A stretch of DNA of 51,096 bases from Acidovorax sp. (GTDB taxonomy: Bacteria > Pseudomonadota > Gammaproteobacteria > Burkholderiales > Burkholderiaceae_C): the NCBI RefSeq assembly GCF_027492855.1, contig NZ_JAPUDY010000086.1:1-51096 (forward strand), read 5' to 3'. A model generated the notes under the pieces. That model had not been told where the DNA came from. It saw nothing but the letters and a program-made list of their open reading frames with translations, and searched no databases. Shown one piece after another: positions 8,816 to 46,994 of the stretch (position 1 is its first letter; the number at the start of each line of letters is the position of its first letter). The position numbers and the translations under genes were made by a program.

Positions 8816-10092
8816 CCCCGAACCTCGCCCTCGCCCAGCACCACGTACTTGAGCGAGGTCAACCCCTCCAGGCCCACCGGTCCGCGCGCATGGAACTTGT
8901 CGGTGCTGATGCCGATTTCGGCGCCCAGGCCGTATTCAAAGCCATCGGCAAAACGGGTGCTGGCGTTCACCATCACACTGGCCGAATCCACCTCGCGCAG
9001 GAAGCGCTGGGCATGCACATGGTTGGTGGTGAGGATGGCGTCGGTGTGGTGGCTCGAATAGCGGTTGATGTGGGCAATGGCATCGTCCACCCCCTCCACC
9101 ACCTTCACGCTGATGATGGGCGCGAGGTATTCCTCGCTCCAGTCCTGCTCGGTGGCAGGCACCAGCTTCGCGCCGGGCACGGCCGCCAGGATGGCCAGCG
9201 CCTCGGGGCTGCCGCGCATCTCCACACCCTTGGCGGCATACACGGCGCCGATCAGCGGCAGAAACTGCGCCGCCACGCCGCGCGCCACCAGCAGGCCTTC
9301 GCTCGCGTTGCAGGGGCTGTATTTGTTGGTCTTGGCGTTATCGGCAACTTTCACCGCCATCGCGATGTCGCAGGGGTCGTCCACATAGGTGTGGCAGTTG
9401 CCGTCCAGGTGCTTGATGACGGGCACCTTGGCGCCCGCGCTGATGCGCTCGATCAGCCCCTTGCCGCCGCGCGGGATGATCACGTCCACAAACTGCGGCA
9501 TGGCGATGAGCTGGCCCACGACTTCGCGGTCGGTGGTTTGCACCAATTGCACCGCGTCCTGCGGCAAACCTGCTTCGGCCAGCGCCTGCTGCACCAGCTT
9601 GGCGAGCGCCTTGTTGGAATCAATGGCTTCCGAGCCGCCGCGCAGAATGCAGGCGTTGCCACTTTTGATGGACAGCGACGCGGCCTCGATGGTCACGTTG
9701 GGGCGGCTCTCGTAAATCATGCCGAACACGCCGATGGGCACGCGCATCTGGCCCACACGGATGCCGCTGGGTTGCTGCTTCATGCCGATGATCTCGCCAA
9801 TCATGTCGGGCATGGCGGCCAGTTGCTCGCAGCCTTCGGCGCAGGTCTCCAGCACCTTGGGACTGAGCTTGAGGCGGTCCACCATGGGCTCGGCCAGGCC
9901 TGCGGCGCGGGCGCGGTCCAGATCGCGGGCGTTGTCGGTCTGCAGCGCATCCACGTTCTCGCGCAGCAGCCGGGCCAGGGCCTTGAGTGCTTTGTTTTTG
10001 ATAGCTGCTGGCGCTTTAGCCATCAGCGCAGAGGCCGTTTTTGCCTGCAATCCAAGGGCTTGCGTGTATTCGGCGACGTTGAGCGCATTCAT
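8812..10092 (-). CDS. proA: gamma-glutamyl phosphate reductase
   Basis: NADPH-dependent reduction of gamma-glutamyl phosphate to the semialdehyde, second step of proline synthesis. The product shows the aldehyde-dehydrogenase fold with the catalytic cysteine in [11 protein letters not shown] near residue 260 and [13 protein letters not shown] near 135. I choose the ATG at 10092 (426 residues, starting [11 protein letters not shown], close to the usual 417); a GTG at 10110 would add six residues. Residues about 19-35 are encoded by an in-frame copy of the dispersed repeat. proB is not in the window. Confidence 0.95.
9989..10036 (-). repeat. two-hairpin repeat inside proA, translated in frame
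   Basis: Read on the minus strand it carries GCGCTGATGGCTAAAGCGC (large hairpin, one arm mismatched) followed by GCTATCAAAAACAAAGC (small hairpin), the same order as intergenic copies. It encodes [15 protein letters not shown] in the N-terminal helical part of ProA. The A/T-rich codons stand out from the neighbouring GC-rich codons. Confidence 0.65.
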
Positions 10093-10132
10093 GGCGAAAT
10101 TCTCGCACACCCCACCCGCGCGAGCCGCCCTC

Positions 10133-11332
10133 TCAGCGCATGAAGCGCCCGTCGCGCCCTATGTAGGTGAGCTCCACAAAACGCGAGCCCTCACGCGAAC
10201 CCTTGGCAAAGCTGATCTCGAATCCGCCGAGATCGACCTTGCCCATCGACTCCAGGGCCTGGACGAAGCGCGCCACGGTCAGCTCGCGGCCCGCGCGGCG
10301 CAGCCCTTCGGTCACGGCCTTGGCGTTCAAAAATGCCTCGAACCCCACAAACGACAGGTTGGCAAAGCCGCTGCGCTGCATGGCCGCGCGGTACTCCTGG
10401 GCGGCCACCACGCTCTTGCTCCAGGGGAGCGGGACCACGGAAGTGACGACCATGCCCACCCCATCAGGCCCCAGCGCCTGCACCGTGGCCTGGCTCCCCA
10501 TGACGGACAGCGCATAAAACCGCATCCCCCGGCCCACGGCGTTGTAGCGCTTCACGAACTCCAGCGTGGCTTTGCCGGTGGTCACCAGCACCAAGGCATC
10601 CGGGCGGCTGTCGTGAAGCACCTGCACCGCCGCGTCCACATCCGAGGCATCGGGCCGCAGGCTGGCCTGGGCATGGAGCTGCATGCCACGCCGCGCCAGG
10701 GCATTTCGCATACTGGCCAGCCCGTCCTGGCCAAAACCGTTGTCCAGATAGACCATGGCGATGCGCTGCTGGCTCAGCGTGTGCAGGTGCGCGACGATTT
10801 TTTCGATCTCATCGGCGTAGCTGGCGCGCAGATGGAATATCGCGGCACCTGTGTCCGTGGCGGTGCGCAGGTTCCCCGCGCCCGTGATGGGCCCGAACAG
10901 CGGCAGCCCGGCCTTGTCCAGCAGCGGCTGCACGGCGGTCACATTGCCCGTGCCCGTCATGTTGAGCAGCGCAAAGGCCTGCACCTCGCTCACCATCTTC
11001 TGCACCGCCTTCACGCTGTTGGCGGGCACATAGCCGTCGTCGAGCGTGACAAGCCGCACCGCGCGGCCATGGATGCCCCCTTGGCGATTGACGCCATCGA
11101 ACCACGCCTGTGCGGCATTTGCGATGTCTTGCGTCATGCCGCTCAAGGGCCCCGTGAGGGCAATGATCTGCCCGAGCACGATCTCGCGCTCGGACACGCC
11201 GCCAGCGCTCGCCTGCGCCCCCCACGGCCCGAGGGCTGCAGCCAGCCCGGCCAGGCAGGCGCGGCGGCGCAAGAGGCCGGTGCCCGGCGAGCCCCCGGCC
11301 CGTGGGCTGTTCAACAGCCGGTCCACGATCAC
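10133..11332 (-). CDS. ABC transporter substrate-binding protein, branched-chain amino-acid type (orphan)
   Basis: Periplasmic ligand-binding protein of the Peripla_BP_6 (LivJ-like) type, 399 residues. The N-terminus has an Arg-rich segment ([19 protein letters not shown]) ending in AQA/SA cleavage sites, compatible with Sec or twin-arginine export. The mature part opens with [18 protein letters not shown], a standard start for this family, followed by [16 protein letters not shown]. No permease or ATPase gene is adjacent, so it is an orphan. Its GTG start overlaps the stop of the upstream carboxylesterase gene by 4 bp (GTGA), indicating translational coupling. The ligand is unknown; ester hydrolysis products are a guess from context. 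Confidence 0.85.
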
Positions 11333-13044
11333 TGCGCCCCGATCACGGCCTGTGTCTGGGTCGCATCGAACACCAGCCGCGAAGGCCAGCCTTGCCAGGT
11401 GCGCCCCAGGCCCGCGTTGTTCGGGTCCCCCGTGCGTGCAAACGCCCCCAGGCTGGCCATCATCGCCCCCGACAAGGCCAGGCGGCCGGGCTTGTTGGCG
11501 GTGCTGTTGGTGACGTTGGCAAACAGCGAGGGGCCGAAATTGCCAAACAGGAAGGGCAGGTCAAACGCATGCGCGGCCCCGTAGATGGTGTTCCACGGCG
11601 CGGGCTGCTGAGCCCAGCGGAAGTCGTAGGCCCACACCTTGTCCTGCTGCGTCTTCAAGGTGTTGAGCACGTTGTCGCGGCTGAGTCCGAACAAGCCGTT
11701 GCCAATCATCGCCGTGCGAGCGTTCCAGCCGGTCGCTGCGGTGTCGGCGGGCAGGTAGTACGGGTGGATGATGTCGCCGATCGCCGTGGCGGCGGGAGCG
11801 TCTGGCCGGTAGTTCATCATCAGCTTGAAGCGGTCGGCATCGTTCATGACAAAACCCGCAGGCCCGCCCAGAAGCGGCAGGAACGGAGCAAACAACTTGC
11901 CCTCGTCCGCGGTGACGCCCGCCAGCACCGGCATGCGGTTGTATTTGCCAGCCGCCATGGCGCTGATGGGGTCGGCAGGCAACACAGTGCCATCCGGGAT
12001 CGGGCCGGACCCGGTCAGCCCGCTGGCAAGCAGGGTGCTGAGCAACTGCTTGCCATCCTTGCCCCGCAGGTAGGTGGCCACTTCAGCCGCGCCCATGCCT
12101 GCCACCGCCGTTGCGGCAGCGGTCATGTCGGCGGCGCGGCCGTCGGCCACCAGCAGGCGCGCCAGCAAGGCGTTGGCCTGCGCGGCATACGTGGTGGCGG
12201 GGTTCAAGGTGGCGATGGCGCCTTTGGGCAGGTTGGACGCCAGCGAGATGCCCCCAGACAACGGAACCGCCTTGTGGAACAACCCGGCGGCGGCGGGCGA
12301 TGCCACCAGGGCCCACACGTTGATGGCACCGGCCGATTGCCCCATGAGCGTGACATTCCCCGCATCTGCGCCGAACACGGTCGCATTCTTTTTCACGAAG
12401 CGCAGGGCCTGCATCACATCGAGCAAGGCAAAGTTGCCCGAAGCCTCCTCGGCGCTCGCGCCCTCCTTGAGCTGCGCCAGATTGAAAAAGCCCAGCGGCC
12501 CCACGCGGTAGTTGACCGTCACCACCACGGCATTGGCCGCCTTGGCCAGCGCGGCGCCGTCGTACACCGGGTCGGCCGTGAAGCCGCTGATATTGCTGCC
12601 CCCATAAACGAACACGATGACCGGCAGTTTGTCGGCGTCGCCATCCGGGCGCCAGACGTTGAGCGTGAGGCAGTCTTCGCTGCCCACGGGCGTGTTGAGC
12701 GTGGTGGCAATGGTCGCGTCATAGGTGTTGTTGGCGCCGGGTCCGTAGAGGCGCCCGTTCTGCAGGCAGGCCTGGCCGAAGCGTGTGGCGTCCCTGGCTG
12801 TGGCCCAGGCAGCCGGCTCCACCGGCGCCCGCCAGCGCAAGGCGCCAACCGGTGGTTGGGCGAAGGGAATGCCCTTCCAGGAAAGGGTGCCCTGGCCCGC
12901 GTCACGCGCCCCTTCGACCACCCCGAGGTGCGTGGTGCGCGAGGTCGGTGCATCGCTGCTGTTGCCTCCACCACATGCCGCCACGAAGCCGACGGAACAC
13001 AACGCCGCGGCCACTCCCTTCCATCTGTCGTATCGCTTCATCAT
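11329..13044 (-). CDS. type-B carboxylesterase, putative lipoprotein
   Basis: Ester hydrolase of the carboxylesterase/cholinesterase family. I choose the ATG at 13044, preceded by AAGGAGA with 7 bp spacing (571 residues), over an in-frame start 63 bp upstream. The N-terminus is a lipoprotein signal with lipobox FVAAC near residue 22 and a Gly/Ser linker. The nucleophile serine lies in GQSAGA near residue 237, the oxyanion segment is YGGSNISG, and a candidate catalytic His is in AAHAFDLPF near 491. It is the first gene of a two-gene unit with the substrate-binding protein and diverges from two AraC-type regulators. Natural substrate unknown. Confidence 0.9.
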   Translation of the reverse strand: MMKRYDRWKGVAAALCSVGFVAACGGGNSSDAPTSRTTHLGVVEGARDAGQGTLSWKGIPFAQPPVGALRWRAPVEPAAWATARDATRFGQACLQNGRLYGPGANNTYDATIATTLNTPVGSEDCLTLNVWRPDGDADKLPVIVFVYGGSNISGFTADPVYDGAALAKAANAVVVTVNYRVGPLGFFNLAQLKEGASAEEASGNFALLDVMQALRFVKKNATVFGADAGNVTLMGQSAGAINVWALVASPAAAGLFHKAVPLSGGISLASNLPKGAIATLNPATTYAAQANALLARLLVADGRAADMTAAATAVAGMGAAEVATYLRGKDGKQLLSTLLASGLTGSGPIPDGTVLPADPISAMAAGKYNRMPVLAGVTADEGKLFAPFLPLLGGPAGFVMNDADRFKLMMNYRPDAPAATAIGDIIHPYYLPADTAATGWNARTAMIGNGLFGLSRDNVLNTLKTQQDKVWAYDFRWAQQPAPWNTIYGAAHAFDLPFLFGNFGPSLFANVTNSTANKPGRLALSGAMMASLGAFARTGDPNNAGLGRTWQGWPSRLVFDATQTQAVIGAQ

Positions 13045-13201
13045 TGTTTGTCTCCTTGGTATCGAGGGAAATCTCCAGTTGCAAGCACCCGCACCCTGCA
13101 CGGACACTGAACTGAGGCGGGCGCAGCGTCCAAATGCAGTCTAGAAGCGGCAAACACGCATGCGCCTATCCCAACAACGCCAATCACCTGACTTCACGCA
13201 C
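13045..13201. promoter_or_regulatory. divergent promoter region, carboxylesterase / AraC regulators
   Basis: This 157-bp gap separates the minus-strand carboxylesterase start from the plus-strand AraC regulator start. It must hold the promoter of the esterase unit and probably the regulator binding site. I do not see a clear -35/-10 pair or a convincing direct repeat, so only the arrangement supports this entry. Confidence 0.35.
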
Positions 13202-15389: not shown

Positions 15390-15392
15390 GAT

Positions 15393-15986: not shown

Positions 15987-15992
15987 GGCGTG

Positions 15993-17412: not shown

Positions 17413-17484
17413 TGCAATTGCTATTATTCTGATAGCTTTTAGCGCTTGATGAATAAGCGCCAGAGCCCATTTCCATCAAAATTG
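17410..17484. repeat. two-hairpin repeat between convergent genes
   Basis: On the plus strand: small hairpin CTATTATTCTGATAG, then AGCGCTTGATGAATAAGCGC, then flanking CAGAGCCCATTTCCATCAAAA. It fills the whole gap between the 94-codon gene (stop inside the left edge) and holA (stop at 17486-17488). No uridine tract follows either hairpin, so a classical terminator role is not obvious. Confidence 0.8.
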
Positions 17485-17485
17485 C

Positions 17486-20194: not shown

Positions 20195-22888
20195 TTACAC
20201 CACCACGTTCACGAGGCGGCCCGGCACCACGATCACCCGCTTCGGATGTGCGCCTGCAGCCTGGGCCACAAAGGCTTCGCTGGCCAGCGCGATGCGTTCG
20301 ATCTCGGCCTTGTCGGCCTGGGCGGGCACATGGATGGAGCCGCGCAGCTTGCCGTTGACCTGCAGCATCAGCTCAATCTCGTCCTGCACCAGCGCGCCCG
20401 CATCCACCTGCGGCCAAGGGGCGTCGAGCAGCTCGCCCAGGGCACCGGCGTAACCCAGGCCTTGCCACAGGCTGTGCGCGATGTGGGGGGTGGCGGGGTA
20501 CAGGCAGCGCAGCAGGATGCCAAAACCTTCGATCAGCGCCACTTGGGCACCAGCCGAGTCCGTGGCCTTGAAGTCTTCGAGCGCGTTGATCATCTTCATC
20601 GCGCCCGAGACCACGGTGTTGTACTGCATGCGCTGGTAGTCGTAGTCCACCTGTTTGAGCACGGTGTGGATCTCCAGGCGCAGGGCCTTGGCCTCTTTGC
20701 CAAATTCCACATCTTTAAGGCTGCTGGCGCGCGCCACACTTGCGATGGCAGCTTCTCTATCAATAGCAGAAAGCTTGGCGGCAAAGTTCCACACGCGGCG
20801 CAGGAAGCGGTAGCTGCCCTCCACCGCAGCGTCGTTCCACTCCAGCGTGGCCTCGGGCGGGGCGGTGAACATGGTGTACAGGCGGGCGGTGTCGGCGCCG
20901 TACTTCTCGATCAGGTCCTGCGGGTCCACGCCGTTGTTCTTGGACTTGGACATGGTGCCCACGCCCTCGTAGTCGATGGGCGTGCCCACGCTGAGCAGGC
21001 CGTCGCCGCTAGTGGCTTCGTTCTTGAGCTGGGCGCCGATGATCTTGCCGCCTTCATCCAGCACATGCTCCACATCGTGCGGCCAGAAGTAGTCCTTGCC
21101 GCCCTTGGCGGTGCGGCGGCTGTAGATGTGGTTGAGCACCATGCCCTGTGTGAGCAGCTTGGTGAAGGGCTCATCGACCTTCACCAGGCCCAGGTCGCGC
21201 ATGACCTTGGTCCAGAAGCGCGCATACAGCAAATGCAGGATGGCGTGCTCGATGCCGCCGATGTACTGGTCCATCGGCATCCAGTAATCAGCACCGCCAG
21301 CCACCATCGCATCGGCGTTCTTGGGGTCGCAATACCGCATGAAGTACCACGAGCTGTCCACGAAGGTGTCCATGGTGTCGGTCTCGCGGCGCGCGGCCTT
21401 GCCACACACGGGGCAGGTCACACCGGCGTGGAAGCCCTCGTGCTTGTGCAGCGGGTTGCCCGAGCCGTCGGGGATGCAGTCCTGCGGCAGCACCACAGGC
21501 AGGTCTTTTTCGGGCACCGGCACGGCGCCGTGTTCATCGCAATGGATGATGGGGATGGGCGTGCCCCAGTAGCGCTGGCGGCTCACACCCCAGTCGCGCA
21601 GGCGCCAGGTGGTTTTCTTCTCGCCCAGGCCCTTTTGCTGCAGCGCGTGGGCCACGGCGTTCACCGCGTCCTTGTAGGAGAGGCCGCTGAAACTGTCGGA
21701 GTTGATGGTGACGCCGCGCTGTTTGTCGCCGTACCAGTCGTTCCACTGGTGGTAGTCAAAGTGCTCGCCATCAACAAGCACCACCTGCTTGATCTCGATG
21801 CCGTACTTGAGGGCAAACGCAAAGTCGCGCTCATCGTGCGCGGGCACGCCCATCACGGCGCCGTCGCCATAACCCATGAGCACGTAATTGCCCACCCAGA
21901 CCTCGACCTTTTCTGCGGTCAACGGGTGGGTGACGAACAGGCCCGTGGGCATGCCCTTCTTCTCTTGCGTGGCGAGTTCGGCCTCGGTGGTGCCGCCGGT
22001 CTTGCACTCTTCGATGAAGGCAGCAAGTTCCGGGTTGGCCTTGGCCGCGTGGGCGGCCAGCGGGTGCTCGGGCGCCACAGCACAGAAGGTCACGCCCATG
22101 ATGGTATCGGCACGTGTGGTGAACACATACATCTTGCCGTCGCCAATCAGCGCGCCGTCGTCACCCGCGATGTCGTGGGTAAAGGCAAAACGCACGCCTT
22201 CGCTCTTGCCGATCCAGTTCTCCTGCATCAGCTTCACGCGCTCGGGCCAGCCGGGCAGCTTGTCGCCGGTCACGAAGTCGAGCAGCTCTTCGGCGTAGTC
22301 GGTGATCTTGAGGTAGTAGCCGGGGATCTCGCGCTTTTCCACCGTGGCGCCGGTGCGCCAGCCCTTGCCGTCAATCACCTGCTCGTTGGCCAGCACGGTC
22401 TGGTCCACCGGGTCCCAGTTCACCACCTGGGTCTTGCGGTAGGCAATGCCCTTTTCGAGCATCTTCAAAAACAGCCATTGATTCCACTTGTAATACTCAG
22501 GGTCGCAGGTGGCGACTTCGCGGCTCCAGTCGATGGCCAGGCCCATGGCCTGCATCTGCTTTTTCATGTACGCGATGTTTTCGTGCGTCCATTTCGCGGG
22601 TGGCACCCCGTTTTTCAGCGCGGCGTTTTCGGCAGGCAGGCCGAAGGCGTCCCAGCCCATGGGCATCAAGACGTTGTAGCCCTTCATGCGCAGTTGGCGC
22701 GTGAGCATGTCGTTGATGGTGTAGTTGCGCACATGGCCCATGTGCAGCTTGCCGCTGGGGTAGGGCAGCATTGAGCAGGCATAGAACTTCTTCTTGCTCG
22801 TGTCTTCCGTCACGCGGTAGGCGTCGGTGGCGGTCCAGTGGTCGTGCGCGGCGCGCTCGACGTCTTGGGGAGAGTATTTGTCTTGCAT
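20195..22888 (-). CDS. leuS: leucyl-tRNA synthetase
   Basis: Class I aminoacyl-tRNA synthetase charging tRNA-Leu, 897 residues from the ATG at 22888; the frame is open for another 149 codons upstream but that part overlaps exbD and is not LeuS-like. The HIGH-type motif [11 protein letters not shown] is near residue 40 and the KMSKS motif is TMSKSKNN near 646; the CP1 editing domain lies between. A stretch near residues 710-725 ([17 protein letters not shown]) resembles half of the dispersed repeat. It is followed at 5 bp by lptE. Confidence 0.97.
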
Positions 22889-23024
22889 GGGGGCTCGGGG
22901 GTGAGAGATGTGTGCAACCGCAGGGCTGCGCTGGGCAGATTTTAGGCGGTCAGGCCCGCCATTCGGCCAGGCACCACCGCCACCGACCGTCAGAGGCTGC
23001 GCCCGGCCTCCGCAAACCGTGGTG

Positions 23025-23474
23025 TCAGGGGGTTTTGGCGGGCAGGGCTGGCGCCCCGGAGGGCCGGGGTTCGGCCACAAAACCGATGCGCTGCAGCCCG
23101 GCCAGATGGGCGGCACCCATGACTTCGACCACCCGGCCATAGGGCACGGCCACATCGGCGCGCAGTTGCACTTCGGTGTCCGGCCGCTCGGCGCCGATGT
23201 GATGCAGGCGCTCGGCCAGTACGGCCTGCGACAGCGGCTGATCGTCCAGAAAGGCCTGCCCTGAGGCATCCACCACCAGCGTGACAAACTGCGGCGCCGT
23301 GCCGGGCGTCGCGCCTTCGGTTCGGGGCAGGTCAAGCCGGATGGAGCTGGCCAGCAGCGGCGCCGTGAGGATGAAGATGACCACCAGCACCAGCATCACG
23401 TCCACCAGCGGCGTCATGTTGATGTCGCTCATGGGCTGGGGCCCGCTCGTGCGCTCCAGCCGACCGAAGCTCAT
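23025..23474 (-). CDS. exbD: ExbD/TolR-family biopolymer transport protein
   Basis: Inner-membrane protein with one N-terminal membrane segment carrying the functional aspartate ([18 protein letters not shown], about 23-40) and a periplasmic domain. It partners ExbB to use the proton gradient, energising TonB or Tol. 149 residues, normal for the family. The ATG overlaps the exbB stop by 4 bp (ATGA). Without tonB or tolA nearby, ExbD versus TolR cannot be settled; the dapB-exbB-exbD-leuS order is one I associate with ExbD-like proteins in Burkholderiales. Confidence 0.85.
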
Positions 23475-24148
23475 GCCTTTGTGCTCCCAGCGGTGGGCGC
23501 GGTGTCGATCAGCAGTTCGCGCAGGTCACGCGCAAAGCCTTCAAGGTCGGCCTCGATGCGGCCGATCAGACGGCCGAACACGTTGTAGGCCAGCACCGCC
23601 GGTATGGCCACGGCCAGCCCGGCGGCCGTCATGACCAGTGCCTCGCCGACGGGGCCGGACACGCGGTCGATGGTGATCTGCCCCGCGCCCGCCATGGCGG
23701 TAAGCGCGTGATAAATGCCCCACACTGTGCCCAGCAGCCCCACAAAGGGCGCGGTGGAGCCCACGGTGGCCAGCAGCACCTGCCCAAACTGCAGGCGGCC
23801 CAGCACCTGGTGCAAGGCATCGCGCAGCACACGCGTGAGCTGCTGCGACAGGCTGCCAGCGGTGGCCAGGCTGGCTGCGCCGGAGTGATTTGCTATTGAA
23901 TTTGCAGCAACAACCAAAGGCAGGACAAGCGCAGAGCGGTCAAATGACTGCAAACGTTGCGCTGCATCCTCCATGGATGGCGCCTGCCAGAATGCCGCCG
24001 TGCTGCGGGCCACATCGGCGCTGGCCTGGCGCATGAGCCGCAGCTTCCAGACGATGACCACCCAACTCGCCACCGACATGGCCAGCAGCACCAGGGCTGC
24101 GCCTTGCGTCACGGCATCGCCTTGGCGCCACCAGTGGAGGGCATCCAT
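23471..24148 (-). CDS. exbB: MotA/TolQ/ExbB proton channel family protein
   Basis: Inner-membrane proton-channel subunit of 225 residues with three membrane segments. The second and third contain the family stretch TVGSTAPFVGLLGTVWGIYHA and EALVMTAAGLAVAIPAVLAYNVF. A segment near residues 85-92 (VVAANSIANHS) is encoded by GCTGCAAATTCAATAGCA, close to the distal part of the dispersed repeat. It lies 13 bp downstream of dapB and overlaps exbD. Confidence 0.87.
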   Translation of the reverse strand: MDALHWWRQGDAVTQGAALVLLAMSVASWVVIVWKLRLMRQASADVARSTAAFWQAPSMEDAAQRLQSFDRSALVLPLVVAANSIANHSGAASLATAGSLSQQLTRVLRDALHQVLGRLQFGQVLLATVGSTAPFVGLLGTVWGIYHALTAMAGAGQITIDRVSGPVGEALVMTAAGLAVAIPAVLAYNVFGRLIGRIEADLEGFARDLRELLIDTAPTAGSTKA

Positions 24149-26250: not shown

Positions 26251-26274
26251 TTTGTCTGTATTGGGCCTAAAAAT

Positions 26275-26329
26275 CGGCCTTGGCGCTTACCCATCAAGCG
26301 CAAGCAGCTATCAAATACGCAGCAAATTA
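26275..26329. repeat. two-hairpin repeat at the 3' end of hprK
   Basis: Plus strand: TGGCGCTTACCCATCAAGCGCA (large hairpin) then GCTATCAAATACGCAGC (small hairpin, decayed). The hprK stop TAA (26327-26329 read on the minus strand) forms the outer edge of the repeat, so the element supplies the stop codon. Confidence 0.8.
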
Positions 26330-27283
26330 GCCGCCGGTATCGCGCTCCATGGCGCGGCGGTGGCGGTCCACGAACTCCTGGTAGGTGTCGATGCCGCGCA
26401 ATTGCAAAATGGTGTTGCGCACGGCCGCTTCGACCAGCACGGCGATGTTGCGGCCGGCCACCACCTGGATCACCACCTTGAGCACGGGCACGCCCAGCAC
26501 GTCCTGGGTGAGCGGCTCATAGGGCAGGCGTTCGTAGTCGCGCTCCAGGGTTTCCTTGCGGACCAGGTGCACGATGAGCTTGAGGCGCATCTTGCGGCGC
26601 ACGGCCGTCTCGCCAAAAATGGCACGGATGTCCAGAAGGCCGATGCCGCGCACTTCCAGCAGGTTCTGCAGCAGTTCGGGGCACTTGCCCTCAATGGTCG
26701 TCTGGTTGATGCGGAACAGGTCCACCGCATCGTCGGCCACCAGGCCGTTGCCGCGCGAGATCAGTTCCAGGCCGAGTTCGCTTTTGCCAAGGCCCGATTC
26801 GCCGGTGATCATCACACCAAGGCCCAGGATGTCCATGAACACGCCGTGCATGGTCGTGCGGTCGGCAAAGTGCTTGGACAGGTAAGCGCGCAGCACGTCG
26901 ATGACAAACGCCGACGACTCGTGGGTGGCGAACATCGGGATCTGCGCACGCTCGCACATCGACACCAGCGCATCAGGCGCGATCTGGTTGTCGGCCAGCA
27001 CCAGCACGGGCGGCTCCAGCGTCACGATGCGGGCAATGCGGCGCTTGCAATCGTCGGGCGACGCACTGCTCAGGTACGCGATCTCGCGCTCGCCCAAAAT
27101 CTGGACGCGGTAGGGGTGGATGTAGTTGAGGTAGCCGACCAGATCGGCGCCCGATCGCGCAGAGCGCACGGCCACTTCGTCAAAACGCCGCTCGGAGGCT
27201 CCGAGGCCCGCGACCCATTCCCACTTCAGGGGGCCACGGAATTCCTCGAAAAGGACATCGGCACTGACAACATTGGGCTTCAC
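26327..27283 (-). CDS. hprK: HPr kinase/phosphorylase
   Basis: Bifunctional enzyme that phosphorylates and dephosphorylates Ser46 of HPr, a regulator in the betaproteobacterial nitrogen/carbon PTS. 318 residues with Walker [15 protein letters not shown] near 157 and the HprK signature [16 protein letters not shown] near 205. The start is a GTG at 27283 (product begins [14 protein letters not shown] after the initiator). It follows ptsN and hpf on the same strand. The C-terminus ends at RDTGG with the stop inside a repeat copy. Confidence 0.94.
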
Positions 27284-31717: not shown

Positions 31718-32626
31718 TCAGCTCAGCACCACGCTCGACAAGCGGCGCCGGTACGTGGCCACCACCGGGTCTTCGGGCGGGATCTGGCCCTCGGCCACCT
31801 TGGGCTTGGGGAGTTCGATGATTTCGAGGATGGCCACATAGGTCTTGCGGGCGATTTCTTCGCCCCAGGCCTTGTCGCGCATGAGGATTTCGAGCAGTTC
31901 GTCCATCGCGTCGGTCCAGCGCTGCTGGGCCATCAACCAGCGGGCACGGGCGTAGCGGGTGTCGAAGTCACGCTTGTTGGCCGCGATTTTTGCATCAAAA
32001 TCGGCTCCAGCGCTTTCACCATAAGCGCTAACAGCTGCAAAATCAATAGCATCCATCCACACCTTGAGCGCGCCCAGCTTGCGCGAGCCAGCGGCCTTGG
32101 CGATCACCGGGGCAAAAGCAACCTTGGCATCGTCCTCGCGGCGCAACTGCAGCAAAAGCTTGACGTAGTCGAAGCGCACGTCGTCGTTGGACGGGTCGGT
32201 CGCCACCGCGTGCTGCAGCTTTTCGAGGGCCGTGTCCGTATCGCCATCGGCCAGGGCTTCAAGGGCTTCTTCCTCCTCGGCCTCAGCCACCATCTCTTCG
32301 GCCGTGGGCACATGTTTGTCGAGGAAGGCGCGCACCTGCCCCTCGGGCAAGGCGCCCATGAAGCCGTCCACGGGCTGGCCGTTCATGAGCAGCACGCAGG
32401 TGGGAATGCTGCGGATGCCGAACATGCTGGCGATCTGCTGCTCCTGGTCGGAGTCGATCTTGACCAGCTTGAAGCGGCCGGCGTATTCGGTCTCCAGCTT
32501 CTCCAGCACCGGGCCCAGCGACTTGCACGGGCCACACCAGGGCGCCCAGAAGTCCACCAGCACGGGCACGTTCATTGAGGCGGCAACCACCTCGGCTTCA
32601 AAGTTCTCTACGGTGACGTCAATCAT
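31718..32626 (-). CDS. cnoX: CnoX-type thioredoxin-TPR co-chaperone
   Basis: 302 residues: an N-terminal thioredoxin domain (1-110) with a full WCGPC active site (Cys31, Cys34) and cis-Pro in RSIPTCVLL, followed by a helical tetratricopeptide-like half. This is the layout of CnoX/YbbN, a holdase that protects proteins from oxidation and hands them to chaperonins. E. coli CnoX has lost the first active-site cysteine; this one retains both, so it should be redox-active. Residues about 192-212 (AIDFAAVSAYGESAGADFDA) are encoded by an in-frame copy of the dispersed repeat. Confidence 0.87.
   Translation of the reverse strand: MIDVTVENFEAEVVAASMNVPVLVDFWAPWCGPCKSLGPVLEKLETEYAGRFKLVKIDSDQEQQIASMFGIRSIPTCVLLMNGQPVDGFMGALPEGQVRAFLDKHVPTAEEMVAEAEEEEALEALADGDTDTALEKLQHAVATDPSNDDVRFDYVKLLLQLRREDDAKVAFAPVIAKAAGSRKLGALKVWMDAIDFAAVSAYGESAGADFDAKIAANKRDFDTRYARARWLMAQQRWTDAMDELLEILMRDKAWGEEIARKTYVAILEIIELPKPKVAEGQIPPEDPVVATYRRRLSSVVLS
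31992..32052 (-). repeat. two-hairpin repeat inside cnoX, translated in frame
   Basis: Plus strand shows CCAGCGCTTTCACCATAAGCG (large hairpin) then CAGCTGCAAAATCAATAGC (small hairpin side). The order and spacing match intergenic copies, and the local composition is richer in A/T than the surrounding gene. It encodes part of the linker between two helices in the C-terminal half. Confidence 0.75.
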
Positions 32627-32783: not shown

Positions 32784-33278
32784 ATGAAACCCATCCAGAT
32801 CGGCGTGGTCATGGGTTCCAGCAGCGACTGGGACACCATGCAGCATGCAGTGCAGATTCTTGAACAGTTCGGCATCCAGCACGAGGCCCGCGTGGTCTCG
32901 GCCCACCGCATGCCCGACGACATGTTCGCCTACGCCGAGGCCGCCGCAGGCCGGGGCCTCAAGGCCATCATCGCCGGGGCCGGGGGCGCCGCCCACCTGC
33001 CCGGCATGATCGCCGCCAAGACCACGGTGCCCGTGCTGGGCGTGCCCGTGGCCAGCCGCCACCTGCAGGGCGTGGATTCGCTGCACTCCATCGTGCAGAT
33101 GCCCAAGGGCATCCCCGTGGCCACGTTCGCCATCGGCACGGCGGGCGCCGCCAATGCCGCGCTGTTTGCCGTGGCCCTGCTGGCCAACGAAAGCCCCGCG
33201 CTGCGCGCGCGGCTCGAAGCCTTCCGCGCCGAGCAGACTGAAGTGGCCCGCAACATGACCTTGCCGCCCGCCACATGA
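32784..33278 (+). CDS. purE: N5-carboxyaminoimidazole ribonucleotide mutase
   Basis: Class I PurE, converts N5-CAIR to CAIR in purine synthesis. 164 residues with the active-site segment [13 protein letters not shown] near residue 11, SAHRMPDD near 40 (catalytic His) and [16 protein letters not shown] near 68. The stop overlaps the purK start by 4 bp (ATGA), giving stoichiometric expression of the two partners. Confidence 0.97.
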
Positions 33279-34453
33279 GCCCCGACGACGCCTCTCTCAA
33301 GCCACTGCTGCCCGGCGCCACGCTGGGCGTGCTGGGCGGCGGCCAACTGGGCCGCATGTTCGTGCACCAGGCGCAGGCCATGGGCTACTTCACGGCCGTG
33401 CTCGACGCCGACCCCGCCAGCCCCGCCGGGTTGGTGAGCCACCACCATATTCAGACCGACTACGAAGACCCCAAGGGCCTGGCCGAGCTGGCACGGCTGT
33501 CGGATGCGGTCACCACCGAATTCGAGAACGTGCCTGCCGCCGCCCTGGCTGCGCTGGCCGTGCAACGCCCCGTGTCACCCGCCGCCAGTGCGGTGTCGGT
33601 GGCGCAGGACCGTGCGCGGGAAAAAGCGCATTTCGTCGCCTGCGGCGTGCCCTGCGCGCCCTACGCCGTGATCGAGACGGCGGAACAACTGGCCGCGGTG
33701 CCTGCCGATCTCTTGCCGGGCATCCTCAAAACCGCCCGCATGGGCTACGACGGCAAGGGCCAGGTGCGCGTGAAGACCACCGCCGAGCTGGCCGCCGCCT
33801 GGGACGCGGTCGGCAAGGTGCCCTGCGTGCTGGAGAAGATGCTGCCGCTGCAGCTCGAATGCTCCGTGCTCGTGGCGCGCGGCGCCGACGGTGCCATGGT
33901 GCACTTGCCCGTGCAGCGCAACCTGCACCGCGATGGCATCCTGGCCGTGACCGAGGTTTATGAAGAAAATCTGCCTCTAGCGCTTGCTACACAAGCGGTA
34001 GTAGCTGCGAAATCTGTAGCAGAAGGTCTGCAGTACGTGGGCGTGCTGTGCGTGGAGTTCTTCGTGCTGCAGGACGGCCACCTGGTAGTCAACGAGATCG
34101 CCCCGCGCCCGCACAACAGCGGCCACTACAGCCAGGACGCCTGCGACGTGTCGCAGTTCGAGCTGCAGGTGCGCACCATGGCCCGCCTGCCGCTCACCCA
34201 GCCGCGCCAGCACAGCGCAGCCGTCATGCTCAACCTGCTGGGCGACCTGTGGTTTGCGCAGGGCGATGTGCAGCAGTCGCCCCCGTGGGACCAGGTGCTG
34301 GCCCTGCCCGGCGCGCACCTACACCTGTACGGCAAGCGTGAAGCCAAACGGGGCCGCAAGATGGGCCACCTCAACATCACCGGCGCCACGCCTGCCGCCG
34401 CGCGCGCCACGGCGCTGCAGGCCGCCGCCCTGCTAGGCATCGCAGCGTTCTGA
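33275..34453 (+). CDS. purK: N5-carboxyaminoimidazole ribonucleotide synthase
   Basis: ATP-grasp enzyme making N5-CAIR from AIR, ATP and bicarbonate. 392 residues; [17 protein letters not shown] at the start, [15 protein letters not shown] near 152 and [18 protein letters not shown] near 274 are diagnostic. Residues about 231-251 ([20 protein letters not shown]) coincide with a copy of the dispersed repeat that supplies the helix before [11 protein letters not shown]. It is translationally coupled to purE and followed 2 bp later by tsaC. Confidence 0.96.
33966..34025 (+). repeat. two-hairpin repeat inside purK, translated in frame
   Basis: Sequence blocks CTAGCGCTTGCTACACAAGCG, then GTAGCTGCGAAATCTGTAGC, in the same order as in other copies. 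It encodes [15 protein letters not shown], which in PurK proteins is a conserved amphipathic helix, so the repeat-derived peptide fits the fold. Codons TCT, AGA and GTA here contrast with the GC-rich neighbours. Confidence 0.75.
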
Positions 34454-34455
34454 CC

Positions 34456-39877: not shown

Positions 39878-40000
39878 GGCAAGGCACCTCGCGTCAGTGA
39901 AGAACGACGCATCGTGCGCGCATCTGCGCCGCAGCATCCATTGGGGATAACGCTTGAGACCAGGCGCGAAGACGCCTTGGCGACACCCCGCCCACCCTCT

Positions 40001-40261: not shown

Positions 40262-40287
40262 GGTGATACGGTCATTCGTTCATTCAT

Positions 40288-41745: not shown

Positions 41746-41798
41746 GGCGGAAGTCTATCGCCCGGCGCTGGGCCCAGGCGGGCGCTGATAATCCCCCG

Positions 41799-42812: not shown

Positions 42813-43534
42813 ATCTTCTCGCCTTCGACACCAGCACCGACACCCTCTCCATCGCCGTACAACACGGCGATGGCGTGTGGCAGCACCAGGGGCCTGGCGG
42901 GGCGCAGGCCTCGGCCACGTTGATTCCGGCAGTGCGCGCCCTGATGGCGCAGGCCGATCTGTCGTTCGACGCTTTGGACGCCATCGCCTTCGGGCGCGGC
43001 CCTGGCTCGTTCACCGGCTTGCGCACCGCCTGCGCCGTGGCCCAGGGTCTGGCCTTTGGTGCACGCGGTGGCCAGGGCGTGCCTGTGCTGCCCGTAGACA
43101 CCCTGCTCGCCGTGGCCGAAGAAGCCCGCCTGCAGCACGGCTGCGCCCAGGTGGTGGCAGTGCTGGACGCGCGCATGGACGAGGTCTACCACGCGCGCTG
43201 CGAGTGGCAGGCAGCCAGCGGCCACTGGCACACCGATGCCGACTTTGGCCTGGGGGCACCCGAGTCGGTGCAGCCCCCCCAAGGCTGGACGGTGGCCGGC
43301 AATGCGCACACGCCCTACGGCGAGCGGCTGGCGCCCGGTGCCCACCATGTTTTGGCCCTGCCCACCGCCACCGCCCTGCTGCGCCTGGCGCCCGCCCTGA
43401 TCGCCGCAGGCGCCGCCGTGGCCGCCAGCGATGCCCTGCCGCGCTATATCCGCGATAAAGTGGCGCAAACCACCGCCGAGCGGGCCGCCCTGCGCGCCGC
43501 CCAGGCGGCGGCAACGCCTAAAGACCCCGCATGA
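42809..43534 (+). CDS. tsaB: tRNA threonylcarbamoyladenosine biosynthesis protein TsaB
   Basis: Scaffold partner of TsaD and TsaE in t6A37 modification of ANN-decoding tRNAs. 241 residues of the ASKHA fold: LLAFDTSTDTLSIAV at the start and AIAFGRGPGSFTGLRTACAVAQGLA near residue 55, a hallmark of TsaB. Overlaps the DMT gene upstream and rimI downstream by 4 bp each. The tsaB-rimI pairing is conserved in proteobacteria. Confidence 0.95.
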   Translation: MNLLAFDTSTDTLSIAVQHGDGVWQHQGPGGAQASATLIPAVRALMAQADLSFDALDAIAFGRGPGSFTGLRTACAVAQGLAFGARGGQGVPVLPVDTLLAVAEEARLQHGCAQVVAVLDARMDEVYHARCEWQAASGHWHTDADFGLGAPESVQPPQGWTVAGNAHTPYGERLAPGAHHVLALPTATALLRLAPALIAAGAAVAASDALPRYIRDKVAQTTAERAALRAAQAAATPKDPA

Positions 43535-44034
43535 GCGCCCTGCCCACCCCGCCCTCCTCGCCAGCCGACGACGCCAGCCACGCCCGCACCGAGGCACGTT
43601 TTGAAGCGCTCACGCTGGACCGGCTCGACGCCGTGTTGGCCGTGGAGCAGCGCGCCTACTCGCATCCCTGGACGCGTGGCAACTTCATCGACGCCATGGC
43701 CGCAGGCTACCAGGCGCAGGTGCTGCTGGCAGGCGACCACCTGCTGGGCTACTTCGTCGCGATGATGGGGGTGGACGAGGTGCACTTGCTCAACATCACC
43801 GTCACCCCTGAGTTCCAGCGCCAAGGGTGGGCGCGGGTGATGCTGGATGCGCTGGCCCTGTGGTCGCGCGGGCGCGGCGCGCAGTGGCTGTGGCTGGAGG
43901 TGCGCCTGAGCAACCTGCGCGCCCAGGCCATCTACCAGACCCACGGCTTTCGCCGCGTGGGCGACCGCAAACGCTACTACCCCGCAGACGAAGGCCAGCG
44001 CGAAGACGCCGTAGTCATGAGCCTGGGCCTGTAA
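43531..44034 (+). CDS. rimI: ribosomal protein S18-alanine N-acetyltransferase
   Basis: GNAT acetyltransferase that acetylates the N-terminal alanine of ribosomal protein S18. 167 residues with motif A in LLNITVTPEFQRQGWARVMLDAL near residue 87 (acetyl-CoA loop QRQGWA) and LEVRLSNLRAQAIYQTHGF near 127. Translationally coupled to tsaB. Confidence 0.93.
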   Translation: MSALPTPPSSPADDASHARTEARFEALTLDRLDAVLAVEQRAYSHPWTRGNFIDAMAAGYQAQVLLAGDHLLGYFVAMMGVDEVHLLNITVTPEFQRQGWARVMLDALALWSRGRGAQWLWLEVRLSNLRAQAIYQTHGFRRVGDRKRYYPADEGQREDAVVMSLGL

Positions 44035-44076
44035 TCGCCCTCCTGTCCACAACACACCGATTGCCCGACCACCCGT

Positions 44077-44826
44077 ATGAGCCTTCACCTTGATGCACGA
44101 CAGCGCGCCATGCTGCAAGAAATGGGCGTCACCGTGTGGGACCCGGCGCCTGCTGCAATGCCCACAACGCAGGCACCAGCGGCCCCTTCCGTGACGGCGG
44201 TAGCAGCACCAGCGGTGGCCCCTTCGCGCGCGCCAGACCCCGTGCGCGCAACCCCCGACACCCGTGCCGCAGCCCAAACTACTTCGGCGCCCCCGCCCAC
44301 AACAGCCCCCACCGCCCCGGCGCTGACACTGCACGCAGCGCAAGCGCTGTACCCCACGGCGGACCCCGCGCAAACGCCCGCAGACCTCGGCAGCGGCTGG
44401 CTGATCGTGGCGGAAAGCCTGGCCCCCGCCGACCCGCTGGGCGGTGACGCCGGGCGCCTGCTGGACAACATGCTGCGCGCCATGCAACTGCACAAGCACC
44501 CGCGCGTGTTCCTCGCGGCGCTGGAGCGGCCAGGGCCCGGTAGCAGCGCCCAAGCCAGTGCCGACATCCCCGCCACCTTGGCCGACACGGTGGCCACCCT
44601 GAAGCCCGCCATGGTGCTGGTGCTGGGCCATGTGGCCGCGCGCGCGGCCCTGGGCCGCACCGAGCCGCTGGGCCGCCTGCGCGCAGGGCCGCACCAACTG
44701 GCCGGGTCCCCCGCCGTCGTGACCTACGACCCGGCCTTTTTGCTGCGCTCGCAGGACACCAAGGCCGCCGCCTGGGCCGACCTGTGCCACGCCTTGGCCT
44801 TGGTGCGCAGCCACAGCGCTGTTTGA
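44077..44826 (+). CDS. degenerate family-4 uracil-DNA glycosylase-like protein
   Basis: 249 residues; an Ala/Pro-rich linker (25-90) precedes a domain aligning with family-4 UDGs, which occupy this position after rimI in relatives. Conserved elements are eroded: motif A reads VAESLAPADPLGGDAG in place of GExPGxxED-PFVG; the Fe-S cluster cysteines are absent (the only Cys is in DLCHAL near the end); and the motif TYHPAYLLR reads TYDPAFLLR with the His replaced by Asp. It is probably not a glycosylase. Codon use is normal and the frame intact, so it may have another role. Confidence 0.78.
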   Translation: MSLHLDARQRAMLQEMGVTVWDPAPAAMPTTQAPAAPSVTAVAAPAVAPSRAPDPVRATPDTRAAAQTTSAPPPTTAPTAPALTLHAAQALYPTADPAQTPADLGSGWLIVAESLAPADPLGGDAGRLLDNMLRAMQLHKHPRVFLAALERPGPGSSAQASADIPATLADTVATLKPAMVLVLGHVAARAALGRTEPLGRLRAGPHQLAGSPAVVTYDPAFLLRSQDTKAAAWADLCHALALVRSHSAV

Positions 44827-44841
44827 CACAGTGCAGTGCGA

Positions 44842-44986
44842 TAATTCAGCGCTTACTTATTTTTAACGGAGACAGCTCCTTGGAAACCTACCCGAGTTGG
44901 TAGCTTTCAGCTCCCCGGCCTGCCGTGGGGTTGAAAGCAACCCCTAATCCCCCACCGCAGACGCCAATCACAAAGGGAGTGAGCCC
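44842..44986 (+). promoter_or_regulatory. structured 5' leader of corA
   Basis: After a GATAAT -10-like hexamer (44840-44845) the leader holds successive hairpins: GGAG-ACAG-CTCC (44868-44879), CTACC-CGAGTT-GGTAG (44888-44903) and a long one closed by GCTTTCA/TGAAAGC (44903-44938) with CCCC/GGGG inside. GACGCCAAT follows (44961-44969), then the SD AAGGGAG before the ATG. No T tract follows the long hairpin, so it is not a simple terminator. This could be a magnesium-responsive leader; GACGCCAAT also occurs in M-box aptamers as I recall them, but the whole fold was not matched. Confidence 0.45.
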
Positions 44987-45973
44987 ATGCTCAACATCTT
45001 TACGCTCGTCAATGGCCGGCTGTTCCAGGAAGAAATCGAATCCCTGGAAGAGCTGACCAAGTTCCAGCCCATCTGGGTGGACCTGGAAGCCCCCACCCTC
45101 GAAGAAAAACGCTGGATCAAGCAGCACTACGGCCTGTCCATCCCCGAGGATGCGATGGACGAGGACATCGAAGAATCCGCCCGCTTCTACGAGGAAGACA
45201 ACGGCGAGCTGCACATCCGCAGCGACTTCTTGATCGACGACGACGAAGACCCGCGCTCGGTGCGCGTGGCCTTCATCCTGAACCAGCACAACGCCAACCT
45301 CAAGAGCCGGGGCGTGCTGTTTTCCATCCACGACGAAGACGTGCCCGTGTTCCGCCTGCTGCGCATGCGCGCACGCCGTGCGCCCGGCCTCATCGAGGAC
45401 GCCAAGGAAGTGCTGCTCAAGCTGTTCGACGCCGATGCCGAATACTCGGCCGACACGCTCGAAGGCATCTACGACGAGCTGGAAAAGGTGAGCACCCAGG
45501 TGCTGGCGGGCGACGTGACCGACGCCCGCGCCGGCGAGGTGCTGGCCGCCATCGCGCGCCAGGAAGACTTGAACGGCCGCATCCGCCGCAACGTGATGGA
45601 CACCCGCCGCGCCGTGAGCTTCATGATGCGCAGCAAGATGCTCAACGCCGAGCAGTTCGAGGAGGCGCGCCAGATCCTGCGCGACATCGAGTCGCTGGAC
45701 AACCACACGGCCTTTTTGTTCGACAAGATCAACTTCTTGATGGACGCCACAGTCGGTTTCATCAACATCAACCAGAACAAGATCATCAAGATCTTCTCAG
45801 TGGCCAGCGTGGCGCTGCTGCCGCCCACACTGATCGCCAGCGTGTATGGCATGAACTTCAAGTTCATGCCCGAGCTGGATTGGTCGCTGGGCTACCCCTA
45901 CGCGCTCGGCCTGATGGTGGCCAGCGCCTTGGGGCCCATGTGGTACTTCCGCAAGCGCGGCTGGTTGAAGTAG
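44987..45973 (+). CDS. corA: magnesium/cobalt transport protein CorA
   Basis: Pentameric Mg2+ channel of the inner membrane, 328 residues. A large acidic cytoplasmic domain is followed by two C-terminal membrane helices, with the selectivity motif as YGMNFKFMPELDW (GMN near residue 286). Two helices, acidic funnel and terminal RKRGWLK are typical of CorA. SD AAGGGAG lies 8 bp before the ATG. Upstream is a 145-nt leader that folds into several hairpins; downstream is a dispersed GC-rich repeat. Confidence 0.95.
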   Translation: MLNIFTLVNGRLFQEEIESLEELTKFQPIWVDLEAPTLEEKRWIKQHYGLSIPEDAMDEDIEESARFYEEDNGELHIRSDFLIDDDEDPRSVRVAFILNQHNANLKSRGVLFSIHDEDVPVFRLLRMRARRAPGLIEDAKEVLLKLFDADAEYSADTLEGIYDELEKVSTQVLAGDVTDARAGEVLAAIARQEDLNGRIRRNVMDTRRAVSFMMRSKMLNAEQFEEARQILRDIESLDNHTAFLFDKINFLMDATVGFININQNKIIKIFSVASVALLPPTLIASVYGMNFKFMPELDWSLGYPYALGLMVASALGPMWYFRKRGWLK

Positions 45974-46077
45974 CCCCCCTGTGGCGCTGCGCGCCCTCCC
46001 CCCCGAGGGGGGACGCCTCCGGTGGCCCGGCAAAGCCGGTTCCACGGTGGCGCTGGCGGAGGCGTGCCCTTTTATAG
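45973..46077. repeat. GC-rich dispersed intergenic repeat downstream of corA
   Basis: Starts with GCCCCCCTG at the corA stop, then CCCTCCCCCCCGAGGGGGGA (hairpin) and GGCGCTGGCGGAGGCGTGCC near the end. The block order matches the copy after fur at 26152-26250. Placement just after a stop codon is the same in both. Confidence 0.7.
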
Positions 46078-46135
46078 GGCAGCGGATTTGAAATGAAATT
46101 GCCTGAGCGCGCACATACCTTAGACGCCCCCTATC

Positions 46136-46160
46136 CGTTCGGGCTGAGCCTGTCGAAGCC
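46136..46160. repeat. TTCG-GGCTGAGCC-CGAA dyad repeat
   Basis: CGTTCGGGCTGAGCCTGTCG plus AAGC: an imperfect dyad. Sequences of this form (TTCGxGCTGAGCxTGTCGAA) are, from memory, abundant in intergenic regions of many proteobacteria. Only one copy is in this window. Confidence 0.5.
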
Positions 46161-46190
46161 TGGGCGCTCTTTGGCAACAACACTTCGCTA

Positions 46191-46245
46191 GGTGAAATTG
46201 GCCTCTAGCGCTTATTCAACAAGCGCTAACAGCTATTAATTTTAT
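46191..46245. repeat. two-hairpin repeat at the 3' end of mtnN
   Basis: Plus strand: CTCTAGCGCTTATTCAAC, AAGCGCTAACAG, then CTATTAATTTTATAG. The mtnN stop TAA lies inside the small hairpin (CGCTATAAAATTAATAG on the minus strand), so the repeat provides both the stop codon and the last Leu codon. Confidence 0.85.
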
Positions 46246-46994
46246 AGCGACCGCAACAGCGTCTGCACCATGTGTTCGGCGTAGCGGCTGGCCACGGCCT
46301 GCACGAACTGGGCGAAGTCGACATGGGCGGTATCGTCAGCGCGGTCCGAGATGGTGCGCACGGCGGCAAAGGGCAGGCCGTAGTCGTGGCAGACCTGGGC
46401 CACTGCAGCGCCCTCCATCTCCACGGCGAGCACGTTGTGCCCGGCGTCCCGCAGCGCGGTACGCAGGCGCTGGGATTCCTCTGCGGTCGAAACGAATCGG
46501 TCGCCGCTGGCCACCAGGCCGTGGTGAACGCGGTGTGCTTGTTCACCGGTTGATTTGAAGCCAAATTGACTGCTAGCGCTTGTTATACAAGCGCTAGCAG
46601 CTCCTAAAAGCAGAGCGGTCAGCGCTGGGTCACAGGCCAGTCGGGTGCGCGCGTAGCCCGGCAACTCCCAGCGGGCGAACAGCGGCGATGCGTCCATGTC
46701 GTGCTGCACATAGTCCTGCGCCACCACCACATCACCCACGTTCACCCCGTCCCCCAGGCCCCCGGCCACCCCGGTGAACACGATGCGCGCCACCCCAAAG
46801 TGTTCGATCAGCGCCGTGGCCGTGGTGGCCGCGGCCACCTTGCCGATGCCCGACAGCGCCAGCACCACCTGCCGGTCGTGCAATTCTCCGCACCAGAAGG
46901 CGCGGCCCGCATGCGTCACGCGCTGCGGATGGGCCAGGTGCTGGACCAGCGAGCTTTGTTCTTCGGGCAGGGCGCTCAGGATGGCGGTACTCAT
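46242..46994 (-). CDS. mtnN: 5'-methylthioadenosine/S-adenosylhomocysteine nucleosidase
   Basis: Cleaves adenine from MTA and SAH, recycling methionine and removing methylation by-products. 250 residues: MSTAILSALPEEQSSLV at the start (catalytic Glu region), FTGVAGGLGDGVNVGDVVVA near 73, and VEMEGAAVAQVCHDYGLPFAAVRTISDRADD near 190-220. It is about 15-20 residues longer than the usual form; the extra lies near 128-150, where an in-frame repeat copy encodes GAASACITSASSQFGFKS. The stop codon is inside another repeat copy. Confidence 0.93.
   Translation of the reverse strand: MSTAILSALPEEQSSLVQHLAHPQRVTHAGRAFWCGELHDRQVVLALSGIGKVAAATTATALIEHFGVARIVFTGVAGGLGDGVNVGDVVVAQDYVQHDMDASPLFARWELPGYARTRLACDPALTALLLGAASACITSASSQFGFKSTGEQAHRVHHGLVASGDRFVSTAEESQRLRTALRDAGHNVLAVEMEGAAVAQVCHDYGLPFAAVRTISDRADDTAHVDFAQFVQAVASRYAEHMVQTLLRSL
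46557..46608 (-). repeat. two-hairpin repeat inside mtnN, translated in frame
   Basis: A near-perfect large hairpin CTAGCGCTTG-TTATA-CAAGCGCTAG with GACTG/CAGC extensions; the small hairpin is decayed. It sits before HHGLVASGDRFV. The in-frame insertion adds residues to a loop next to a surface helix. This is the best-preserved coding copy in the window. Confidence 0.85.

Follow-up and report, generated by a model that had tools for sequence, protein, structure and literature searches.

The 51,096-base stretch of Acidovorax sp. analysed here (the window; 65.7% GC, contig C86 of a 4.64-Mb genome) carries a dispersed palindromic repeat of 68 nucleotides (nt), which is read in frame inside several housekeeping genes. 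In purK and proA this element replaces existing sequence and does not lengthen the gene, it sets synonymous codons against the bias of the genome, and where two genera both carry a coding copy at the same site, each pair fits the sequence variants (dialects) of its own genera better. The reading that we favour, with a probability of roughly 0.62, is that of a DNA-level motif held by selection or by recombinational drive, which overwrites tolerant protein segments and whose engine we infer.

Position weight matrices give the element 58-65 bits. In Acidovorax it carries about 63 bits and runs from an AT tract through GGCCTC and a palindromic core to AGCAGCTAT-N7-ATAGCAA. The core pattern AGCGCTT-N{3,8}-AAGCGCT has four exact matches in the window versus 0.01 expected. 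Its spacer measures 7 nt, where an earlier reading of the window from its letters alone (the sequence-only reading) had given 5 nt, and AGCGCTT-N7-AAGCGCT with at most one mismatch occurs 363 times in the genome, compared to zero for the pattern read backwards. Scores refer to a matrix trained on 34 core copies from a 451-kb Acidovorax sample (the window, C8 1-340000 and C99 120001-180000) and to a refined matrix in the 68-nt register, trained on the same sample with coding copies included. This sample holds 62 elements of at least 22 bits versus none in reversed sequence, the matrix having been trained on that very sample. The four coding copies proposed by the sequence-only reading are all present and in frame, and a fifth, weaker one lies in leuS:

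9987-10054, minus strand: element in proA (gene 8812-10110, minus strand), 46 bits; read on the element strand as a 22-residue peptide; degenerate, with a weak core.
31985-32052, plus strand: element in cnoX (gene 31718-32626, minus strand), 71.7 bits; read antisense to the element, peptide AIDFAAVSAYGESAGADFDAKI.
33955-34022, plus strand: element in purK (gene 33275-34453, plus strand), 65.5 bits; read on the element strand as a 22-residue peptide.
46551-46618, plus strand: element in mtnN (gene 46242-46994, minus strand), 64.9 bits; read antisense to the element, peptide ALLLGAASACITSASSQFGFKS.
20702-20769, plus strand: weak, degenerate copy in leuS (gene 20195-23335, minus strand; leuS by NCBIfam), 37.9 bits.

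The name cnoX comes from the sequence-only reading, NCBIfam giving only a thioredoxin domain for this gene. Partial matches had been reported for leuS and exbB. The first stands as the weak copy above, and Rhodoferax leuS carries an element at the same site; in exbB the nearest match (23890-23957, 16.5 bits) lies at the chance level of codon shuffles, which yield on average 0.7 matches of at least 15 bits per 354 kb of coding sequence.

The comparison of orthologues with and without the repeat, which the sequence-only reading had proposed, was carried out with one locus set per gene for both indels and the GC content of third codon positions (GC3). Rows of at least 25 bits were classed as carrying the element and rows below 0 bits as element-free; those between 0 and 25 bits were left out (purK 6, proA 4, cnoX 8, mtnN 1). 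Usable rows numbered 110 for purK, 29 of 30 for proA, 104 of 110 for cnoX and 30 for mtnN. The window purK is nearest to that of Acidovorax sp. GW101-3H11 (92%, among the 80 named loci listed). In purK, 44 of the 110 orthologues carry the element and 60 lack it, with zero net indel in 42/44 and 59/60, respectively. The same is true for proA (9/9 with and 16/16 without the element), so that both genes have the same length in both classes, and for cnoX zero net indel was found in 15 of 17 orthologues with the element and in 59 of 79 without it. Composition changes at the site: in rows with the element GC3 inside and outside is 0.36/0.87 for purK, 0.34/0.84 for cnoX, 0.48/0.84 for proA and 0.37/0.86 for mtnN, versus 0.78/0.82, 0.78/0.81, 0.87/0.87 and 0.81/0.81 in element-free rows. 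Since length is equal and GC3 shifts at the site, the repeat overlies a segment that was already part of the protein family, and the idea of an added segment fails for purK and proA. This is also why the repeat-derived peptides of these two genes had been seen to lie in a family helix.

Site length in mtnN varies in both classes (10 orthologues with the element, 19 without). MtnN has 250 residues compared to 232 positions in the family profile, and the excess had been ascribed to the element; this does not hold up, as 6 of the 19 element-free orthologues show no net length change, 9 are longer by 3 codons and 4 are shorter. From the proposal that the element inserts into genes and adds protein segments, the in-frame dispersed family therefore survives, whereas added length is not supported for purK, proA and 15 of the 17 cnoX copies and is possible in cca (see below).

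The second line of evidence comes from other genera. Rhodoferax, Polaromonas and genome G015 carry an element of the same length with the same small hairpin and other cores. The layout across the family thus consists of i) an AT tract, ii) a genus-specific core, which in Acidovorax is a hairpin, and iii) the constant small hairpin GCTAT-N7-ATAGC. The dialect cores read CTAGCGCTT..., CTAGC(C/G)CCCGTRGAT... and CTAGCCGGCGTATTTA..., besides a fourth variant. We label the dialects A (Acidovorax), R (Rhodoferax) and P (Polaromonas), with X as a further label. Elements of at least 20 bits number 65, 59, 83 and 119, versus 1, 0, 0 and 0 in reversed sequence. For the comparison of coding sites, separate models were derived from 31, 20, 51 and 35 copies, none of which lies in an open frame of 110 codons or more. 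Folding z-scores against mononucleotide shuffles are -3.2 and -2.5 for dialects A and X and -1.3 and -1.6 for R and P. The AT tracts are either A-runs or T-runs. Pairing of the two tracts as an RNA or cruciform stem was rejected, because the types on the left and right sides are independent of each other (108/50/31/11, p=0.57).

With these non-coding models, the own-genus model fits better in all 17 orthologous coding-site pairs in which both genera reach at least 15 bits; the pairs come from eight genes (9 from purK, 2 from leuS and one each from cnoX, proA, icmF, ribD, fmt and an unnamed gene). Taken singly, 29 of the 34 sites prefer their own model, compared to 15 of 34 element-free target sites, which is the chance level (duplicates among the 34 were kept). 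The clearest pair is cnoX: the Acidovorax copy scores A 63 / P -7, and the Polaromonas copy at the same codons A 6 / P 62. For the unnamed gene the scores are R 73 / X 45 versus R 44 / X 74, and for icmF R 44 / P 8 versus R 33 / P 73. Over 45 coding copies the rank correlation of dialect is rho 0.61, a statistic set aside in favour of the site pairs in view of the shifted-window result for purK (see below).

Coding copies are also far more frequent than chance predicts, contrary to one outcome that would have refuted the sequence-only reading. Genes were called with a codon-score caller made for this analysis, giving 362 genes and 354 kb of coding sequence in the Acidovorax sample. These contain 15 matches of at least 30 bits, versus none in 20 synonymous-codon shuffles (matrix trained on this sample). 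The samples of Acidovorax and Rhodoferax together contain 42 copies in coding sequence or in 5' extensions, and 40 of these use just two of the six possible frames, 19 on the same strand in phase 0 and 21 antisense in phase 1. In Polaromonas, 10 of 11 copies use the two main frames; the caller is unreliable for this low-GC sample (coding fraction 0.27), and the split into coding and intergenic copies was left unused there. Host genes with an NCBIfam match above cut-off include, besides leuS, mutL and comEC as well as a gene for a lipid A phosphoethanolamine transferase. A permease-like protein with only weak family matches, encoded on C8 of the same genome (L143:16598-19243), hosts two elements that point in opposite directions and are each read in frame. 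In Rhodoferax and Curvibacter (L191:4836-4916; L251:4846-4926) an antisense-read element forms the start of the frame together with an N terminus resembling a signal peptide (MKNTIKFIATCA..., MKNTMHLIAASA...). Three elements of the Rhodoferax sample (L286-L305) lie within Ala-Pro-rich segments of long proteins (e.g. ISAPKAAPAPATAAPAAPVSVA), and low-complexity linkers may be favoured hosts.

Two host genes, which we take to be cca and miaA, allow insights into persistence within the genus. Among the best 30 of 36 and the best 30 of 35 same-genus matches, respectively, the element is found at the same place in 26/30 and 28/30 loci at 25 bits or more, each locus being scored by the best-fitting position of the A or X model along the segment. 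The arms of the element retain codons ending in A or T against the bias of the genome: of 40 scored element codons, 13 end in this way and are common to at least 80% of the species, versus about 13 of 658 elsewhere, an odds ratio of 24. This count covers 27 cca and 29 miaA loci, to which neither the window genome nor L385 nor the cca locus L384, which has no element, belongs. The middle of the element is hypervariable at the protein level, with up to 9 residues per position versus a mean of 1.8-2.0 elsewhere in the two proteins. Orthologous copies (22 in cca and 24 in miaA, at least 20 bits) show an identity of 0.75 and 0.77, a value inflated by coding constraint, versus 0.56 and 0.53 to other copies of the window genome. 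Since orthologous copies are thus closer than paralogous ones, their sequences suggest that within the genus copies are mostly inherited on this scale.

How could a DNA motif come to lie across protein-coding segments without changing their length? In the reading that we favour, coding copies would arise by substitution of tolerant stretches (helices, loops and linkers) toward the motif. They would then be kept either by selection, as sites of a putative factor that acts on DNA in a sequence-specific way, or by a drive that stems from recombination or uptake. Should the preference of such a factor shift, intergenic and coding copies would shift along with it. The use of mainly two frames probably reflects filtering, as only a few of the motif's frames lack stop codons and encode harmless peptides. 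More tentatively, and at a little under even odds, we propose that the motif drives itself into essential genes and rewrites their codons when the dialect changes, with parts of PurK, LeuS, CnoX, IcmF, Fmt and others set by a DNA-level process and not by protein function.

Several observations weigh against the favoured reading. With about 60 bits, the motif is longer than one would expect of a single binding site. Of the 17 dialect pairs, nine stem from purK, the pairs are not independent and relatedness is left in; two Rhodoferax-like genomes share one model, and the OS-4 genome was scored with the Rhodoferax model. The rank test of dialect in purK gives rho 0.57 (n=18), a value that shifted windows exceed (|rho| up to 0.75). 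The proA copy is without the Acidovorax core type, the Polaromonas purK copy is too degenerate to type, and in G015 the two main frames account for no more than 15 of the 29 copies in genes or extensions. One clearly element-free cca relative is shorter by 2 codons, and added length is possible there. Besides, the share of major codons inside the element compared to the rest of the gene (0.78/0.83 in cca, 0.83/0.81 in miaA) is overall not raised, nor is synonymous codon identity in purK (0.64 inside versus 0.62 in the rest of the gene). For this reason, conservation is argued here from the AT-ending codons, which hold against a GC3 of 0.87-0.88.

The main rival is templated overwriting. Copying in the form of single-stranded DNA or short-homology gene conversion would transfer other copies onto coding stretches that resemble them, replacing bases without insertion and homogenising the family within a genus. 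Such a process would explain the length neutrality, the single dialect per genome and the dialect difference at fixed sites. It could also account for the core loops of Acidovorax, which are equally alike flipped or unflipped, as events at a hairpin or a single strand could produce. Homogenisation would be slow at best, however, given that orthologous cca and miaA copies are closer to each other than to other copies of the window genome, and the copies of one genome are only 0.60 identical to each other. We regard templated overwriting as unlikely, if the least unlikely of the alternatives.

For the 7-nt core loop (model positions 31-37) of Acidovorax, 18 exact matches were found in the same and 20 in flipped orientation among 1431 pairs, and in G015 there were 35 and 24 among 4465 pairs. 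The core hairpin thus behaves as if it were able to invert relative to its asymmetric flanks.

Somewhat less likely again is a DNA uptake or recombination signal with dialects, which molecular drive would build up in non-coding DNA and in coding DNA free of constraint, by analogy with what has been proposed for Haemophilus and Neisseria. In Pasteurellaceae and Neisseriaceae, uptake sequences, as far as the available text describes them, likewise have coding and non-coding copies in tolerant coding stretches, lineage variants and AT tracts beside the core (PMC1939737). Our element is an over-represented motif that also lies in tolerant coding stretches and has lineage dialects, and the independent choice of A-runs or T-runs on each side would fit such a signal. 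Its length argues against this analogy: 68 nt and 58-65 bits far exceed the 9-29 bp given for known uptake sequences in the available text of the same source (PMC1939737). The placement of intergenic copies is a further point against it. Among 64 Acidovorax copies of at least 30 bits, 41 are intergenic, 16 lie in genes, 4 are possible 5' extensions and 3 overlap gene ends (a slightly different gene rule from that behind the 15 coding matches above). The intergenic copies favour gene 3' ends, with 18 of 49 in convergent gaps compared to 34 of all 241 gaps of at least 60 bp.

A palindromic element of the Rickettsia type or a miniature inverted-repeat transposable element that inserts in frame and adds peptide segments, in line with the view of the sequence-only reading, appears improbable. 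Rickettsia palindromic elements (RPEs) are also palindromic repeats read in frame in conserved genes; in the accessible part of the source they measure 105-146 bp and are described as intragenic insertions (PMC2229807), whereas the element described here brings no net length change in purK and proA. In-frame copies of an otherwise intergenic family do lie inside conserved genes, mostly in two frames, and the cca with the element is 2 codons longer than the one clearly element-free orthologue. For purK and proA, however, insertion is contradicted: no segment is missing from the element-free orthologues, the copies show no indel in 42/44 and 9/9 cases, and elements of different dialects lie at identical sites in different genera.

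The last candidate requires a look at the distribution of the repeat. In a sample of 100 genomes of the order, of which 3 belong to this family, the repeat is abundant in only one family (Comamonadaceae genera). Outside it, counts of the hairpin AGCTAT-N7-ATAGCA stay close to those of the control or fall below them, apart from a mild excess in f41 and f42, two families with small genomes. Within the family (54 genomes) many genera are rich in the hairpin, and Delftia, Diaphorobacter, Limnohabitans, Hydrogenophaga and others show it at control level. A purK score of at least 20 was found in 34 of 37 hairpin-dense versus 2 of 15 sparse genomes, and a cnoX score of at least 20 in 15 of 35 versus 0 of 13 (relatedness left in for both). 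Hence, 13 of the 15 low-repeat genomes have no purK copy, and the prospect raised by the sequence-only reading, that unrelated families might show the same DNA at these sites without an intergenic repeat family, did not materialise.

Repetitive extragenic palindromic (REP) elements of the GTAG/CGTC superfamilies resemble our element in being numerous dispersed palindromes 3' of genes, and according to the available portion of the source some REPs lie inside open reading frames (ORFs), where they supply stop codons (PMC3733652). REP-like abundance and placement are evident here as well, as the copies are mainly intergenic (41/64) and enriched in convergent gaps near gene 3' ends. A REP palindrome measures 20-40 bp, our element 68 nt. 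In contrast to the REPs of that account (PMC3733652), our element is longer, has no detected link to a REP-associated Y1 tyrosine transposase (RAYT), replaces and does not interrupt purK and proA, and shows genus dialects at fixed coding sites. A Y1_Tnp match occurs in 52 of the 54 genomes, in most as a single one, and also in genomes with almost no repeats. An element was found within about 1.5 kb of only 2 of the ten Y1_Tnp loci listed; some of the ten are IS200-like copies or come from repeat-poor genomes, and the locus of the window genome lies outside this set. In consequence, mobilisation of a REP element by a RAYT is disfavoured as the engine and is the least probable explanation of all, since Y1_Tnp is present in repeat-poor genomes and none was matched in repeat-rich G020. 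Diagnostic hairpins in G020 number 184 forward and 171 reverse, with only 3 Acidovorax-type cores, and this genome may perhaps represent a further dialect. G015 has 20 Y1_Tnp matches, several of them identical-scoring and IS200-like, some as two adjacent pieces.

Besides the copies within genes, the window contains five more, all at gene borders or in intergenic gaps:

2322-2389, minus strand: intergenic copy beside the 3' end of ORF 2391-4334 (minus strand), 81.6 bits.
8743-8810, plus strand: copy between the 3' end of proA and the 5' end of ORF 7294-8751 (minus strand), overlapping the first 9 bases of this ORF, 68.2 bits.
17418-17485, minus strand: intergenic copy whose flanking genes are called convergent (the left one short and weakly scored), 79.9 bits.
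26258-26325, plus strand: intergenic copy at the 3' end of ORF 26327-27283 (minus strand), 64.2 bits.
46183-46250, plus strand: copy over the mtnN stop codon and its 3' side, 82.9 bits; of the 8 relatives whose mtnN region was compared, 6 have a copy there too.

For the copy 3' of mtnN, the window and these 6 relatives show a mean identity of 0.61 versus 0.26 for the adjoining 60 nt; choosing the copies by score favours similarity, as was done here, and 0.61 is about the value of unrelated copies within one genome (0.60).

Parts of this family have been recorded before as statistical motifs. A 2017 survey lists GCTTAT(N)5AAGCG in Acidovorax ebreus TPSY with 114 copies, of which 107 are intergenic, 5 lie in genes, 2 are overlapping and 44 are convergent, and ATAGCT(N)22CAAAAG in Polaromonas naphthalenivorans CJ2 with 125 copies, 18 of them in genes (PMC5217627). 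The A. ebreus pair, as given in the available text, fits the Acidovorax core exactly. The P. naphthalenivorans pair shares ATAGCT, abundance and placement with our element, its CAAAAG not being found in our Polaromonas consensus, and probably belongs to the same family. The accessible sections of the survey treat the two as separate statistical motifs and contain no coding analysis, dialects, mechanism or orthologous sites (PMC5217627). In the open-access literature we found no analysis of the coding copies or of the family as such, and Rfam at gathering score gave no matches in the window.

Repeats within genes are usually read as tolerated insertions; here the repeat appears to rewrite sequence in place. 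As the coding copies match the non-coding family of their own genus in dialect, they offer a natural experiment that separates selection on the protein from forces acting at the DNA level. Protein divergence from this source shows up as low-GC3, hypervariable patches and could mislead tests of selection as well as dating. Beyond the individual genes, the family points to a putative DNA-acting factor in many Comamonadaceae.

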